Positions 6,498-50,558 of a stretch of 50,822 bases of DNA are shown in pieces. Both the position numbers and the translations under genes were made by a program. The DNA lies in NCBI RefSeq assembly GCF_011758645.1, contig NZ_JAAMOZ010000006.1, positions 1 to 50,822 of the forward strand. The letters are read 5' to 3'. The stretch comes from Brooklawnia cerclae (GTDB lineage Bacteria; Actinomycetota; Actinomycetes; Propionibacteriales; Propionibacteriaceae). Position 1 is the stretch's first letter. Each line of letters opens with the position of its first letter. The notes below the pieces were generated by a model. The model was given only the letters and a program-made list of their open reading frames with translations. It ran no database searches and was not told the origin of the DNA.

Positions 6498-7687
6498 CCG
6501 GCTTGCGTCGCGTCGTCGTGATCGGCGCCGGGATCATGGGTGCGGCCTGCGCACGAGCGCTGGCCCAGGACGGCCACCAGGTGACCGTGCTCGAGCGCGG
6601 GGCGGTCGCCGGCCAGACCTCCAGCCACTGCGAGGGCAACCTGCTCGTGTCCGACAAGGGTCCGGGAATGGAACTCGAGCTCGCCAAAGCCGCCCGGGCG
6701 CGCTGGCCCCAGGTCGCGGCCGAACTCGCGGCCGAACTCGGCGAGCCCCTCGGTGACATCGAGTTCGAGCCCAAGGGCGGCCTGGTGGTCGCGACGACGG
6801 AGGCCGGTGGTGCGGCCCTGACCGGCTTCGCCGCCGAGCAGCGCGGCGCCGGCATCGATGCCGAGGCCCTCGATGTCGCCTCCACCCGCCGGCTCGAACC
6901 GTACCTGAGGCCCGACTGCACCGCGGCGGTGTGGTACCCGCAGGACGCGCAGTTGCAGCCCACCATCGCCGCCGAGGCTCTGCTCGCCTCGGCACGCCTC
7001 GCGGGAGCGAGCGTCCACATCGGAACCGAGGTGCTGGGCCCGGTGCTCGACTCCGGAGGCGCCCTCACCGGCGTCCTCACCCCGGGCGGCACCTTTCCCG
7101 CCGATCTGGTGGTCAACGCGGCCGGGCCGTGGTCGGGCGACGTCGCACGGCGGATGGGCGTCCCGCTGCCGGTCCTGCCCCGCCGCGGCATGGTGCTGGT
7201 CACGTCGCGGATGCCGCAGAAGGTTTTCCACAAGGTCTACGACGGCGACTACTTCGGAACCACCCAGTCCGCCGACAGCGGCCTCCAGACCTCGACAGTC
7301 GTCGAGTCGACACCGGCCGGTACGGTGCTCATCGGCTCGTCCCGCCAGCGGATCGGGTTCACCGAGTCGTTCGAGGTCGACGTGCTGGCCGAGCTCGCAC
7401 GCAAGGCCATCGAGCTGTTTCCCGTGCTGGCCGGCATGAGCCTGCTGAGAAGCTACGGCGGCTTCCGCCCGTACCTGCCGGATCATCTGCCGGTGATCGG
7501 CCTCGACCCCCGGCTGCCCGGCCTCGCGCATGTCACCGGCCACGAGGGCGCCGGCATCGGGCTGTCGGTGATATCCGCCGAACTGCTCGCCGACCAGGTC
7601 GCCGGCCGCGCCCCCGCCATCGGGACGGACGCGTTCCAGGTCACGCGACCCTCCCTGTCCGAGCACCTGAACGGAGAACCCCGATGA
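6494..7687 (+). CDS. FAD-dependent oxidoreductase (DAO family), putative D-hydroxyproline dehydrogenase subunit
   Basis: The ATG at 6494 is chosen because GGAG lies 5 bases upstream and the start overlaps the regulator stop as ATGA. The product is 397 residues. It opens with a dinucleotide-binding fold (VVVIGAGIMGAACARAL) and ends with the DAO-family segment RSYGGFRPYLPDHLPVIG and GHEGAGIGLS. Together with the next two genes it matches the three-component amine dehydrogenases (HcnABC / opine-oxidase / LhpBEF type): a DAO-like catalytic subunit, a small 2Fe-2S protein and a second FAD protein. In the LhpBEF type the complex oxidises cis-4-hydroxy-D-proline to pyrroline-4-hydroxy-2-carboxylate. 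The substrate is assigned from the downstream epimerase and deaminase. Confidence 0.87.
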   Translation: MTGLRRVVVIGAGIMGAACARALAQDGHQVTVLERGAVAGQTSSHCEGNLLVSDKGPGMELELAKAARARWPQVAAELAAELGEPLGDIEFEPKGGLVVATTEAGGAALTGFAAEQRGAGIDAEALDVASTRRLEPYLRPDCTAAVWYPQDAQLQPTIAAEALLASARLAGASVHIGTEVLGPVLDSGGALTGVLTPGGTFPADLVVNAAGPWSGDVARRMGVPLPVLPRRGMVLVTSRMPQKVFHKVYDGDYFGTTQSADSGLQTSTVVESTPAGTVLIGSSRQRIGFTESFEVDVLAELARKAIELFPVLAGMSLLRSYGGFRPYLPDHLPVIGLDPRLPGLAHVTGHEGAGIGLSVISAELLADQVAGRAPAIGTDAFQVTRPSLSEHLNGEPR

Positions 7688-12883: not shown

Positions 12884-13495
12884 CTAACCGCGGCTCACAC
12901 GCACGACGGTCGTCGGTTCGAGCCCGGGCGCGGCCGAGGCCTCGTGGACCTCGGCGACCAGGCCGAGTTTCTTGAGCTTGGGGCGTGCTTGCTCCACCTC
13001 GTCGTGGGCCGACCCGCCTTTCAACGCGAGCAGGCAGCCGTCGGGGCCGAACAGGTCCTTCGTCCAGCCCACCAAGCGGTCGAGCGGCGCGACCGCCCTG
13101 GCCACCACGACGTCGAAGCGATCGTCCAGGTCTTCGGCCCGTCCCCGCACGACGCTCACCCGATCAGCCAGCCCCAGTTCCCCCACGACGTCGACGAGGA
13201 ACGTGTACCGGCGGAGAAGCGGTTCGAGCAGGACGATTCGCAGGTCGGGCCGCAGGATCGCCAGCGGGATGCCCGGCAGTCCAGCGCCGCTGCCGACGTC
13301 CACGACACTGACCCCCTGAGGCACCATCGTGGCCAGCACCGCCGAGTTCAGGACGTGCCGTTCCCACAGCCGTTCGCCCTCCCTGGGGCCGAGCAGACCA
13401 CACTCGATCCCCCGCGTCCCCAGGATCGCGACGTAGCGGGAGACCACATCCACTGAGGTGCCGAAGACCTCGGCACCGACGGCCGGAGCTTTCAC
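12884..13495 (-). CDS. rsmG: 16S rRNA (guanine527-N7)-methyltransferase RsmG (GidB)
   Basis: A 203-residue SAM-dependent methyltransferase with the RsmG motifs RLWERHVLNSAVL, the SAM loop VDVGSGAGLPGIPLAI (about residues 66-81), LLEPLLRR and VVARAVAPLDRL. It methylates G527 of 16S rRNA (E. coli numbering). The start is a GTG directly after the khpB TGA stop with no gap. It closes the conserved rpmH-rnpA-yidD-yidC-khpB-rsmG operon. The parA/parB genes that commonly follow in Actinomycetota are not here; a convergent hydroxyproline operon is found instead. Confidence 0.96.
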   Translation of the reverse strand: MKAPAVGAEVFGTSVDVVSRYVAILGTRGIECGLLGPREGERLWERHVLNSAVLATMVPQGVSVVDVGSGAGLPGIPLAILRPDLRIVLLEPLLRRYTFLVDVVGELGLADRVSVVRGRAEDLDDRFDVVVARAVAPLDRLVGWTKDLFGPDGCLLALKGGSAHDEVEQARPKLKKLGLVAEVHEASAAPGLEPTTVVRVSRG

Positions 13496-14005
13496 TCAAT
13501 CCGCTTTCCGGATCACCACACGCCGGTTCGGTTCCTCGCCCTCCGACTCACTGGTCAGGCCGGACGCGGCCACGATGTCGTGGACGATCTTGCGCTCGAA
13601 GGGGTTCATCGGGGTCAGCCGCGCGGGCTCCCCGGTCTGCTGCACCTCGAGGATCGCGTCGGTCGCCAGCCCCTGCAACTCGACACGACGCTTCTCACGG
13701 AAACCAGCCACGTCGAGCATGAGCCGGCTCCGTTTTCCGGTCTCGGTCATGACGGCGAGCCGGGCGAGCTCCTGCAGGGCCTCGAGCACCTCGCCGTCGC
13801 GGCCGACGAGGACGTCGCTGTCGGTGACGATCGACACGTGGGGACGATCCCCCTCGGTGTAGATGTCGATGTCGCCGTCCAGATCCGCGATCTCGAGAAG
13901 CTCCTCGAGGTAGTCCGCGGCGATGTCACCCTCGGTGTCGAGGGCGCTCGTCCCGGCCTGCTCGGGCGCGTTCTGCGCGTCCGGAGTCCGCTCGTCAGTG
14001 TCCAT
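13496..14005 (-). CDS. khpB: RNA-binding protein KhpB/Jag (KH and R3H domains)
   Basis: The ATG at 14005 is preferred over upstream in-frame starts because AGGAG lies about 8 bases before it. The product is 169 residues. After a low-complexity acidic N-terminus (about 25 residues) comes a KH-type domain (HVSIVTDSDVLVGRDGEVLEALQEL) and a C-terminal R3H domain with the Arg-x3-His signature in NPFERKIVHDIV. It lacks the separate Jag-N domain of Firmicutes, as is usual in Actinomycetota. It lies between yidC and rsmG, as in most relatives. Confidence 0.93.
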   Translation of the reverse strand: MDTDERTPDAQNAPEQAGTSALDTEGDIAADYLEELLEIADLDGDIDIYTEGDRPHVSIVTDSDVLVGRDGEVLEALQELARLAVMTETGKRSRLMLDVAGFREKRRVELQGLATDAILEVQQTGEPARLTPMNPFERKIVHDIVAASGLTSESEGEEPNRRVVIRKAD

Positions 14006-36510: not shown

Positions 36511-36584
36511 GGGCCTATAGCTCAGTCGGTTAGAGCGCTTCCCTGATAAGGAAGAGGTCACTGGTTCAAGTCCAGTTAGGCCCA
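36511..36584 (+). tRNA. tRNA-Ile (anticodon GAT)
   Basis: A complete 74-base cloverleaf. The acceptor stem GGGCCTA pairs with TAGGCCC plus discriminator A. The D-arm contains AGCTCAGTCGGTTAGAGC, the anticodon loop CTGATAA gives GAT between CTTCC and GGAAG, and the T-arm contains GGTTCAAGTCC. CCA is not encoded. No second copy of its 3' end was found downstream in the window. Confidence 0.97.
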
Positions 36585-47293: not shown

Positions 47294-48415
47294 ATGCTGA
47301 CGTACTACAGCCTGATGGTCAGCATCGGCCCATACGTCACCGAACGGTACGGGGCTTCCCCCGCCACGGCCGGTCTTGTGGCCGGGGTGACCGTCATCGG
47401 CATCCTCGTCGCGCGGGCGTTCTCGGGCTATCTGTGGACGAGGTTCACCTCGCGGCAGTTGCTGGCCGCCGGTGTCATCGCCATCGTCCCGGTGGTGGCG
47501 TGCTACGGCATCGACGGAGGGATCGGCCTCATCCTCGTCCTGCGGCTCGTGCACGGCCTGGGGGTGGGCCTGATCGGCACGGTCTCGAACACGGCTGTCG
47601 TCTTCACCCTGCCGCCCGCGCGACGGGGCGAGGGCATCGGGTATTTCACCCTCAGCAACATCGTCGCCACCGCCATCGGGCCGTTCGGGGCCTTGCTGAT
47701 CGTCCACACGCTGGGTTATCGGCCACTCTTCTGGATCGAGGTCTTCGTCGCGGTGGCCGGCCTGCTCGCGGTGTGGTCCGTGCGCCCGGGCTCGATCCCG
47801 GGCCCGTCCGCGCAGGAACCCGTTCAGCCCGAAGGCTGGCTGACCACCATGATCGAGCCGGCCACCCTGCCGCTGTCGTTCGTCATGATGTGGGTGTCGT
47901 TCGGCTACGCCGCCATCAACGTCGACCTCGCCCTGATGACCGCCGAACGTGGCCTGAACGCGTACTCCAGCGTCTTCTTCCTCGTCTACGCGATCATCGT
48001 CCTGGCCTCGCGGCCGTGGGCGGGCAGGCTGATGGACGCACGCACCGAGCACCACATCGTCTATCCCGCCATGGCCGTCTTCGCCTGCGGGCTCGTCCTC
48101 ATCGGCCAGGCGGCCACCGGGGCGGTACTGCTCGTCGCGGCGGCCCTGTGCGGGCTGGGCTTCGGCAACATCCAGTCCGCCTTCCAGACCGCCATTGCCC
48201 GCACCACGCCGCTGCGTCGGCTGGGGCAGGCCAACTCCACCTACTTCATCTTCTTCGACCTGACGCTGGGCGTCGGCCCCTATCTGCTCGGCCTGGTCAT
48301 CCCCACCCTCGGCTACCGCCGCCTTTTCGATCTGCTGGCGGTCGTGGTCCTGGTGGGGATTCCGCTGTACTACGTGGCCTATCACGCCCGGCAGCGGTCC
48401 GCGATCGCCGCGTGA
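47294..48415 (+). CDS. MFS transporter
   Basis: The ATG-initiated product is 373 residues with about 11-12 membrane helices, including motif-A-like FSGYLWTRFTSRQLLAAG and RLVHGLGVGLIGTVSNTAVV. The same frame is open upstream to 47189 and encodes KPQARLFNRQFVQLWIINVT, which would complete the first membrane helix. No ATG, GTG or TTG occurs there, so the true start may be non-standard, or the natural start codon may have been lost. GGGAGGG at about 47198-47204 could be its ribosome binding site. It is probably an exporter of drugs or metabolites; substrate unknown. Confidence 0.85.
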   Translation: MLTYYSLMVSIGPYVTERYGASPATAGLVAGVTVIGILVARAFSGYLWTRFTSRQLLAAGVIAIVPVVACYGIDGGIGLILVLRLVHGLGVGLIGTVSNTAVVFTLPPARRGEGIGYFTLSNIVATAIGPFGALLIVHTLGYRPLFWIEVFVAVAGLLAVWSVRPGSIPGPSAQEPVQPEGWLTTMIEPATLPLSFVMMWVSFGYAAINVDLALMTAERGLNAYSSVFFLVYAIIVLASRPWAGRLMDARTEHHIVYPAMAVFACGLVLIGQAATGAVLLVAAALCGLGFGNIQSAFQTAIARTTPLRRLGQANSTYFIFFDLTLGVGPYLLGLVIPTLGYRRLFDLLAVVVLVGIPLYYVAYHARQRSAIAA

Positions 48416-48886
48416 GCGCAGGCGGACGAAATTCCCAAGAATGCCGTGACGGCGTTGATCCGTGCGCAAGGTGCGGTTACGTTTCTTGCCAATACACCGA
48501 TTCGGAGGATCGACATGACCGGCACCGCGCGGTTCCCTGCTGTCAGGGGCGTTTCCGTGGCCGCGCTCTCCTCCAGGTGTTGTTGCTGATCCGGCACGAT
48601 TCTCCGCTCGCCCGAGGCATTTCCCTGGCTCGCTGAAACCCCCGACACCGGCTGCGCTGCTCTGCGAGTGCACCTGTTCGACCGGGCAGAAGGGCATACG
48701 GGTGTGGTTTCCCACGGTGCGGAGCGTCGTGATGAGGGGACGCGCGAAGAGCAGTTCTTCCGCCTTCTCCATCCGAATCTCCTGCGGTTATGACATGCGA
48801 CCTGCGATACCCGAACGGGCCGGCGGGACGGCTGACAATTCTCCGTCGTCTCGACCCGGTCGACCAAAACCCCCGAGGAGACAAAC
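48416..48886. promoter_or_regulatory. Long leader region upstream of the thiol-transferase gene
   Basis: The 471 bases carry no ordinary gene but include a candidate promoter, TTGATC (48455-48460) and TACGTT (48478-48483) 17 bases apart. The poly-cysteine leader ORF (48515-48589) and about 300 bases of further leader follow before the GAGGAGA ribosome binding site at about 48876. GTCTC near 48850 can pair with GAGAC in that site, a possible sequestering stem. An antisense frame starting at 48772 with AGGAG 7 bases upstream is also present, of uncertain meaning. Confidence 0.5.
48515..48589 (+). CDS. Cysteine-rich leader peptide ending Cys-Cys-Cys-stop (candidate attenuator)
   Basis: A 24-codon ORF with a near-perfect GGAGG 6 bases before its ATG. 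The peptide reads MTGTARFPAVRG then VSVAALSSRCCC and terminates at TGA right after TGT TGT TGC. Short leader ORFs ending in consecutive cysteine codons are described in mycobacteria and other Actinomycetota as cysteine-responsive attenuators of downstream genes. The next gene encodes a thiol-dependent reductase-like protein, which fits control by cysteine or mycothiol supply. The distance of about 300 bases to that gene is longer than in the mycobacterial examples. Confidence 0.7.
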   Translation: MTGTARFPAVRGVSVAALSSRCCC

Positions 48887-49978
48887 ATGACAAGCATCAC
48901 GGCCCAGATCGAAGCGGACCTCAAGGAGCGCCCCGCGCCCGTCGCCACGGGCACGTTCCCGGAGGTCAACACCGAGCAGACCCCGGACGGTGCGTTCCGG
49001 CGTCAGCGCAACTGGTTCACCAAGAGGTTCGGCGACGGGCCGGGGCAGGTGCGTCCCGAGCCGGGCCGGTACTACCTGCTGGGGTCGACGGGGTGCGGCT
49101 GGAACCGCCGCCAGCTCATCATCCGGCGGCTGCTCGGGCTCACCGAGGCCCTGCCCTACGTGCTGCTCACGGGCCGTGACGAGCAGGGCTGGCGGCTGGC
49201 CGCCCACGGCCACGACCTGATCGACAGGTTCGGCAGTGACCAGCTCAACAGCTTCTACGAGCGGACCGATCCCGGCTACCGAGGCCGTGGCACGTCCCCG
49301 ACGGTCATCGACCGCGAGACCGGCCTGGTGGTCACGAACAACTACCACCTCCTGGGGCTCGACCTCGAAACCGCCTGGAAGCCCTTCCATGCGCCGGGAG
49401 CGCCCGACCTGTACCCGGAAGACCTGCGTCCCGAGATCGACCTGCTCAACCAGCAACTCTTCGACGACATCAACAACGGCACCTACAAGGTGATCTTCGC
49501 CACGAACCCGGGAGCGGCGGCTGCGGCGAAGGGAATCTTCGAGGCCCGTCTGGCCGACTACGACTTCCGGTTGGCATCCCGGCGCTACCTGTTCGGCGAC
49601 CGGCTGACCGACTCGGACGTGCGCCTGTTCCAGACCCTGTCGTCCTACGAGCGCAGCTACCGGCCCCGGATCGCCACCATTCTCGGTGAGGAGGAGACCG
49701 CCCACCTGCAGGACTACCCGAACCTGTGGGCCTACGCCCGCGACTTGTTCGCGAACGGGTTCGCCGACGAGCACGAGCAGTACTTCCTGGGGCTCGTGCC
49801 GGGGCCGTCGGGTGACCACCTCGCCGGAGGTTTCGTCCCCGACGGCTACCCCCTGCCTGATCCCGCGGACGACCTCGCCGCCTGGCGCCGGCCCCACGGC
49901 AGGGAGACGCTGACCGGTTCGCCGCTGTACTCCGGCCCTGGCGGTGGTGGCTCCTACGAGTTGTGGCACCTGTTGTGA
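48887..49978 (+). CDS. Glutathionyl-hydroquinone reductase-like protein (Xi-class GST family)
   Basis: A 363-residue protein with the family layout. An N-terminal thioredoxin-like domain contains RYYLLGSTGCGWNRRQLIIR (Cys70), followed by LDLETAWKPFHAP, YPEDLRPEIDLLNQQLFDDINNGTYKV and a helical domain with RRYLFGDRLTDSDVRLFQTL and YPNLWAYARDLF. Typical members have a Cys-Pro-Trp active site; here it is Cys-Gly-Trp. They reduce glutathionyl-hydroquinones. Actinomycetota use mycothiol, so a mycothiol-conjugate substrate is likely. GAGGAGA precedes the ATG. It probably forms an operon with the following GNAT gene. Confidence 0.9.
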   Translation: MTSITAQIEADLKERPAPVATGTFPEVNTEQTPDGAFRRQRNWFTKRFGDGPGQVRPEPGRYYLLGSTGCGWNRRQLIIRRLLGLTEALPYVLLTGRDEQGWRLAAHGHDLIDRFGSDQLNSFYERTDPGYRGRGTSPTVIDRETGLVVTNNYHLLGLDLETAWKPFHAPGAPDLYPEDLRPEIDLLNQQLFDDINNGTYKVIFATNPGAAAAAKGIFEARLADYDFRLASRRYLFGDRLTDSDVRLFQTLSSYERSYRPRIATILGEEETAHLQDYPNLWAYARDLFANGFADEHEQYFLGLVPGPSGDHLAGGFVPDGYPLPDPADDLAAWRRPHGRETLTGSPLYSGPGGGGSYELWHLL

Positions 49979-49985
49979 GGCCCTT

Positions 49986-50558
49986 GTGAGGACGAAGACC
50001 ACGACAGCGAGCGACCAGGACGCCCGATACATCCCCGACGACCTGCTGCGCTGGGACCTGGGATCCCGCCGGGTGCTACGCCTGGCGGACACGGACGAGT
50101 TCGACGAGGTCGCACGGGTGCTGCGGGAGGCGTTTGCCGCCGGAGGTGGGGCGAGGACCGGCGATCTCGCCGGACCCGGTGAGATCGAGGCCAGGTCGGC
50201 CACCCATCACGTGTGGGTGGCCGCCGAGCCAGGGCGCGTCCTCGGCGCGGTCCTGACTCCCAAGCCCCAGCACCACCACGGCCCGTACTTCACCTTCGAC
50301 GCCTTGGGGGTCGGTGAGGCCGGGCGCGGTCTCGACCTCGACTGGCAACTCGTCCATCACAGCGTCGAACTCGCCCGGCGCTGGGGGTACGAGGCGGTCG
50401 AGATCCGTTCCAGCCCGCAGATGACCGCCGCCCATGCGCTGTACCGCCGCTACGGCTTCGTGCGTCGCGGCGAGCGCGAGACCGCCGCGGCCGACGAGGG
50501 CCCGCGTCCGTGCCTTCAGCCGGCCGGGGCTGCGGGGCGGGCTTCCGATCAGGTCTGA
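49986..50558 (+). CDS. GNAT-family N-acetyltransferase
   Basis: A 190-residue protein from a GTG at 49986 with GAGG 5 bases upstream. GNAT features are VLRLADTDEFDEVARVLREAF (strand 1 and helix 1), HVWVAAEPGRVLGAVLTP (strands 2-4), FDALGVGEAGRGLDLDWQLVHHSVELARRWGYEAVEI (acetyl-CoA region, with an unusual loop in place of the normal QxxGxG/A) and AAHALYRRYGFVRRGER (final strand). Only 7 bases separate it from the thiol-reductase-like gene, so they are probably co-regulated by the leader. A role in thiol metabolism is possible; substrate unknown. Confidence 0.82.
   Translation: MRTKTTTASDQDARYIPDDLLRWDLGSRRVLRLADTDEFDEVARVLREAFAAGGGARTGDLAGPGEIEARSATHHVWVAAEPGRVLGAVLTPKPQHHHGPYFTFDALGVGEAGRGLDLDWQLVHHSVELARRWGYEAVEIRSSPQMTAAHALYRRYGFVRRGERETAAADEGPRPCLQPAGAAGRASDQV

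Follow-up and report, generated by a model that had tools for sequence, protein, structure and literature searches.

What is the role of an open reading frame (ORF) of only 24 codons that ends in three consecutive cysteine codons and lies ahead of genes for a Xi-class GST-like protein and a GNAT acetyltransferase in Brooklawnia cerclae? The whole stretch of DNA that was analysed, here called the window, is contig C6 with 50,822 bases, part of a genome of 3.79 Mb. A gap of 471 nt separates an MFS gene, whose stop codon ends at 48415, from the GST start at 48887. The leader ORF (MTGTARFPAVRGVSVAALSSRCCC) occupies positions 48515..48589 of the plus strand, from the ATG at 48515 to the stop at 48587-48589, and is preceded by the ribosome binding site GGAGG (48504..48508, +), 6 nt 5' of the ATG. 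Its Cys codons TGT TGT TGC (48578..48586, +) stand immediately 5' of the stop. The frame is open further 5' to a GTG at 48446 (47 aa); owing to the strong SD sequence, the ATG was nevertheless taken as the start. The ORF, its GGAGG, the terminal Cys codons and the gap had all been pointed out in the initial annotation, and each was recovered as described.

Between leader and GST lies an untranslated spacer (48590..48886, +) without intrinsic terminator or Rfam match, and 297 nt separate the leader stop from the GST start. Just 3' of the leader stop, C exceeds G by 12 over 80 nt (48590..48669, +), and this stretch is a candidate Rho loading region. The GST-like protein has 363 aa (48887..49978, +), with Cys-Gly-Trp replacing Cys-Pro-Trp; the GNAT gene follows at 49986..50558 (+), with GTG 49986 as its likely start, the mechanical ORF beginning at GTG 49944. 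A leader-transcript promoter may be suspected by eye in TTGATC-17-TACGTT (48455..48483, +), a candidate that scores below the threshold of a promoter scan which found nothing above it in the leader region. The peptide matches no family model in NCBIfam and Pfam. Furthermore, Rfam gave only a tRNA at 36511 for the window at the gathering threshold, and no match up to E 1 for the leader region. On the basis of the comparisons set out below, the ORF is probably a cis-acting cysteine sensor for the GST/GNAT operon, and is best read as a form of the poly-Cys leader known from actinobacteria that starts from an SD sequence. Counting against a sensor, the predicted fold of the whole leader RNA is no more stable than that of shuffled sequences (z +1.29).

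Leaders of this kind have a history. Poly-cysteine leaderless short ORFs of mycobacteria were reportedly described by Canestrari et al. 2020 (Mol Microbiol 114:93). They are said to share with the present leaders a short ORF, clustered Cys codons near the stop and a same-strand thiol or cysteine operon downstream, as well as the occurrence of several loci per genome. They are reported to be leaderless, whereas the window leader has an SD sequence and a 5' UTR; among the relatives, the leader at L076 does look leaderless. The targets in the window, Xi-GST and GNAT, and the amidohydrolase found in relatives also differ from the targets reported for mycobacteria. These mycobacterial ORFs are cited in PMC13236596 and PMC9094748. 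Cys leaders before the cys operons of Mycobacterium and P. acnes were already reported in 2005, together with the suggestion of Rho-dependent attenuation (PMC1262725); they likewise carry a run of Cys codons near the stop and no terminator. The targets named in the relevant passages of that paper are cys and cbs operons, with no GST, GNAT, amidohydrolase or importer genes among them. It called polyY motifs a rather weak prediction; here, the excess of C over G was compared with controls. A separate leader, that of metNIQ in S. lividans (MSTTSDRTPATEATTTPGARCMCRRMCAF), contains three Cys and was read by its authors as Met-dependent (PMC8079986); its Cys-rich end resembles the leaders considered here. 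Among the best-ranked open-licence PMC matches, no title or abstract described GST, GNAT or amidohydrolase operons with a Cys leader ahead of them.

Part of the evidence that the leader is functional comes from its recurrence in relatives. The window's genus is represented by seven other genomes, none of which gave a GST match at E 1e-60 or better, so the closest conservation comparison is not possible. A GST relative turned up in 20 of 197 family genomes at E 1e-60, and at E 1e-80 in 16 of 391 order genomes and one of 394 class genomes, the latter being the own genome; the order and class searches gave no GST locus beyond those already found. Named records gave 25 loci, some of them distant. 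Terminal-Cys leaders stand upstream of the GST or its operon in the own paralog (MNAQSYRGPVTVQYAGGMLACPSSCRRH), in Acidipropionibacterium (MNPFMHSAGGPASIASRPMCMCPVCCMCCR), in P. cyclohexanicum (MNISREAVSVMPAVRSTRCQLDCCSPSTAR) and in further relatives (MFAFLRLGVDSAARMCASCCCR and MFASMQSGVSSAARMLSSCCCR; MVETVLNPVCCRLCL and MAKVMLISVCCCLCL; MAQSHIDPRRCPCR; MNESMHGRSAAASFVMRMSPCRCCCRFC; and others). Outside the family, Ancrocorticia populi (Actinomycetaceae) has MRKSMLTAQLSINCASACCCRMCCR. Between genera the leader sequences are unrelated and the terminal Cys codons are kept, while within a genus, as seen in the pairs L022/L029 and L079/L080, drift has spared the Cys end but not the remainder. At five loci (L066, L067, L069, L070 and L073) the leader precedes an amidohydrolase gene, with the GST second.

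This pattern also bears on the idea that the peptide itself acts, as a metal- or thiol-binding small protein or as a peptide precursor. The Cys-rich C-terminus would suit such a role, but between genera the peptides differ in sequence, in length (about 14 to 31 aa) and in the spacing of Cys, and only the terminal Cys persists, which leaves this reading among the least probable.

The recurrence was counted under a strict rule that required an SD sequence, a length of 10-45 aa, CC or CxC among the final 8 residues, two or more Cys among the final 10 and a distance of at most 500 nt from the operon head. Such a leader stands before 14 of 35 GST-operon heads, compared with 4 of 700 dinucleotide-shuffled upstream regions, and before 14 of 28 when Bifidobacteriaceae are excluded; operon heads of L067, L074, L077 and L080 were assigned manually on the basis of gene maps once the leader scans had been made, a possible bias in these counts, which also include same-genus pairs (L069/L070, L022/L029, L079/L080) and some genomes with two heads. 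Across the gene heads of the retrieved loci, 12 of 161 were positive, namely ten GST-operon heads and two classical cysteine operons (cysE-cysK and the CysM-like operon). The 21 strict-negative GST heads comprise seven from Bifidobacteriaceae, three with leaders under a looser rule (L065, L076 and L077) and 11 others without. An accepted leader is thus absent at 18 of 35 heads (the seven Bifidobacteriaceae and the 11 others), which counts against the sensor reading. In two of the 11 (L071 and L072) a Cys leader does lie several kb farther upstream, and in L072 the gene that follows it codes for a peptide-importer permease. Since the rule demands an SD sequence, it misses leaderless leaders and favours SD-led ones, and the share of SD-led relatives is not readable from it. 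The initial annotation had proposed a poly-Cys leader before a Xi-GST/GNAT operon and had made the proposal depend on conservation of the terminal Cys codons; with these codons kept across genera and in one other family, the proposal held.

A functionless chance ORF would be the simplest explanation of the window leader. Bare Cys-Cys-Cys-TGA strings are not enriched in the own genome (8 matches against 8 with a reversed control pattern), the peptide lacks a family model and more than half of the GST heads are strict-negative, all of which fits chance. The signal rests on ORF context, position and recurrence in relatives. Position, SD sequence and Cys end recur before related operons far above the level in shuffles and before other genes; at the level of the leader set chance is refuted, and for the window ORF it is very improbable. 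The pattern TGTTGTTGYCGNTRA occurs at 79 places in the 197 family genomes, compared with 34 for its reversed control (12 of those from one genome), and four of the 30 places inspected (L090-L119) were judged convincing leaders (L090, L101, L106 and L108). Those at L090:1483-1515 and L108:1486-1515 are short (MHERMCCCCR and MGVRVCCCR) and precede OppC-type permeases, and the one on the minus strand of L106, in a genome of the window's genus, looks leaderless and precedes a predicted lipoprotein.

Moreover, the window leader is one of six in its own genome, gathered from targeted looks rather than a census, each before cysteine or thiol-linked genes. Besides the window's Xi-GST/GNAT operon, these genes are a GST paralog (L065, C1:1949543), a GNAT-GST of the CPW type (L081 plus strand, C1 about 1,925,600), a group of thioredoxin, DUF4395, CysM-like, JAB and MoeZ-like genes (L081 minus strand, divergent from GNAT-GST), cysE-cysK (L084, C1 about 1,290,200) and a peptide importer cluster (L101/L082, C1 about 2,027,200 to 2,017,400). 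The last contains a predicted lipoprotein, importer permease and ATPase, a CysK/CBS-like gene and a GST, and is presumably a single operon; if so, four of the five Xi-GST matches in the own genome stand behind a Cys leader. For the fifth (L004), the upstream scan showed no leader. Three of the six leaders (cysE, CysM-like and importer) seem leaderless by eye, with a TANNNT box 6-8 nt before the ATG, and the other three have an SD sequence. In L081, the two divergent leaders lie back to back within 13389-13709, one facing the thioredoxin/CysM-like side and the other the GNAT-GST (CPW) side. A further frame in the own genome, at L036, ends at position 1512 with VCCLCHCCC and lacks an ATG or GTG start, offering just a TTG six codons ahead of the stop. 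By eye, the gene that comes next looks like a GntR-type regulator, and the frame was not counted as a leader.

The window GST matches solved structures over most of the protein (4pts, E 1.7e-48; 6gc9 Xi 1, E 2.7e-36), as a Xi-class or hydroquinone-reductase-type protein would, and may act as a reductase on thiol conjugates. In its active-site region (...GSTGCGWNRRQ) the Cys aligns with that of CPW, and Pro is changed to Gly. The initial annotation had singled out this Cys-Gly-Trp; it is indeed present, though not as a peculiarity of the locus. It is a clade trait, as relatives of at least 50% identity with a readable motif have CGW, with one exception, and those below 46% have CPW, CPF or CHW. 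The exception, SGW in Acidipropionibacterium (L019, the same locus as L051), stands behind a strong six-Cys leader, and its Ser at the position of the active-site Cys argues against Cys-based chemistry in this single protein. MstX of Corynebacterium glutamicum, a Xi-class mycothiol transferase, belongs to the same family by annotation and motif position and has its catalytic Cys in the same place; it carries CPWA and is described with cited negative regulation by RosR (PMC6815410), whereas the window GST carries CGW behind a Cys leader.

A GNAT adjoins the GST, or is fused to a GST-like domain, in the window and in L070, L052, L081, L076, L046 and L074; the fusions, with a GST-like C-terminal domain, lie downstream of the GST at L070:9947-11305 and L052:4580-5956. 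The GNAT proteins of L046 and L074 are long, their second half being unassigned. Amidohydrolase partners occur in L066, L067, L069, L070, L073, L075, L080 and L046, CysK-like partners in L076 and L082, and peptide-importer partners in L077 and L052. The CysK-like gene of L076 (oriented 6573-7547) has an early in-frame TAG and lies behind the leaderless-looking Cys leader, in an operon with GNAT and GST. Beside distant CPW-type GST relatives, Lacrimispora L059 has an M20 peptidase and a NIL-domain ABC ATPase, and the Treponema MAG L058 an amino-acid ABC importer. Tandem Xi-GST-like genes, with four matches each, were seen in L058 and in the Oscillospiraceae MAG L055. The suggestion that the targets are not classic sulfur genes survives in part: they are non-classical, but with CysK-like, amidohydrolase and importer neighbours in this genome and its relatives they are not foreign to cysteine, and the same genome also has Cys leaders before cysE-cysK and the CysM-like operon.

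How the leader would act was approached through a set of 20 leaders, which includes the strict-rule failures L065, L076 and L077 and two classical cysteine leaders, that of cysE with its end off by one base. Cys is encoded in these leaders by 53 TGT and 19 TGC (n=72), compared with 70 TGT and 315 TGC (n=385) in genes from 18 loci that largely overlap with those of the leaders, and with 0 TGT and 20 TGC in the first downstream genes. The window leader has 2 TGT and 1 TGC against 7 TGT and 12 TGC in seven window genes, numbers that alone prove nothing. The TGT preference is as expected if slow decoding is wanted; the RNA sequence could also be served by it.

Amino-acid leaders before biosynthetic operons often use alternative hairpins and an intrinsic terminator, and classical transcription attenuation of this type was considered on that general ground. 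A hairpin followed by a T run was found in 0 of 20 spacers, with 0.57 expected, and the terminator scan placed its two terminator-like sites upstream of the leader, so this mechanism has hardly any probability here. The spacers are instead rich in C: C minus G averages +0.114 (n=20), compared with -0.002 in control intergenic stretches (n=93; p=1.5e-7), a p-value that overstates independence because the loci are related by descent and that compares whole spacers with controls limited to 250 nt. A C-rich, G-poor region after the stop without a terminator, the mark of Rho-type (tna-like) attenuation, thus characterizes the leader set, although the window spacer is only mildly C-rich (+0.04 overall and +0.15 in the first 80 nt, less than most), with two G-rich 40-nt blocks further along. 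The spacer of L066 is not C-rich at all. The rho gene is present in the own genome.

An unlikely, though more serious, alternative is translational attenuation of the mycobacterial type, in which leader or spacer RNA masks the ribosome site of the GST until a ribosome stalling at the Cys codons releases it. The window leader has CTCCTCC directly ahead of its Cys run, complementary to the GST SD sequence GAGGAG; pairing between target SD and leader ORF is predicted with a probability of 0.40-0.64 for the own GNAT-GST, L079, L080 and L077, but of 0.01 for the window. Imposing a stalled ribosome lifts the predicted accessibility of the SD in the window from 0.51 to 0.60, where shuffled spacers give a mean gain of 0.02, and that of the own cysE from 0.21 to 0.44, whereas the mean over 20 leaders changes only from 0.38 to 0.42 and the value for L067 falls. 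In these predicted folds, SD masking lacks general support and may apply in single loci. The distance of about 300 bases from leader to GST had been taken as a sign of a mechanism other than the mycobacterial overlap type; the distance proved ordinary, as spacers range from roughly 90 to 419 nt, some target starts being uncertain and the lengths before amidohydrolases, whose start codons are uncertain, being approximate. The proposed difference in mechanism fared better, as C-rich spacers, missing terminators and the lack of general SD pairing argue against SD masking.

Rho-dependent attenuation is accordingly favoured within the sensor model, given the absence of terminators, the C-over-G spacers, the little-changed SD accessibility and the encoded Rho; the Rho step taken alone has about an even chance. 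What we observe is the leader's anatomy, its recurrence in relatives and its place in a set of Cys leaders within one genome; stalling of the ribosome, the Rho step and a cysteine response are inferred. A ribosome would start at ATG 48515 and reach the three Cys codons that adjoin the stop. Supplied with enough Cys-tRNA, it would finish and leave. The untranslated spacer, C-rich at its beginning, would then be exposed, and transcription would end prematurely, most likely via Rho. With scarce Cys-tRNA, the ribosome would stall on the Cys codons and shield the first part of the spacer, much as happens in the tna operon, and RNA polymerase could proceed to the GST and GNAT genes. In E. coli, tna attenuation is Rho-dependent, and TnaC responds to free tryptophan by way of its nascent peptide. 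The proposed logic is alike in that a ribosome held at the leader end hides the Rho loading region, whereas charged tRNA-Cys, rather than free tryptophan, would be sensed here. The tna operon is also named in PMC1262725.

A broader and tentative reading, which we consider less likely than not, concerns the whole leader set. It might control an undescribed, oxygen-independent cysteine salvage with Cys-codon stalling and Rho. Peptides or S-conjugates would be imported by Opp-type ABC transporters, N-acetylated by the GNAT and cleaved at the C-S bond by the thiol-dependent CGW Xi-GST; the amidohydrolase would then deacylate the product, which CysK-like enzymes would use. Ribosomes stalling at Cys codons would be the switch and Rho the effector. 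Bacillus subtilis salvages S-alkylcysteine in a comparable order of acetylation, C-S cleavage and deacetylation, with the flavin and O2 enzymes CmoO/CmoJ (PMC10863075). The likeness, namely the co-occurrence of GNAT, GST and amidohydrolase or M20 genes, is one of logic rather than of demonstrated homology, and the enzymes differ, as the GST here is predicted to be thiol-dependent. It is proposed that this GST could cut the C-S bond without oxygen.

If true, such a salvage would do without oxygen what the CmoO/CmoJ and YxeK pathways do, as their anaerobic counterpart. The ribosome-sensed cysteine regulon would extend beyond cysteine synthesis to thiol enzymes, and the condition predicted for these enzymes would be cysteine shortage, not oxidative stress. 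Among Xi-GSTs, an orphan clade whose active site is altered would thereby become a testable candidate for the recovery of cysteine from S-conjugates. The leaders also offer about twenty cases for testing the involvement of Rho that was suggested in 2005 (PMC1262725).
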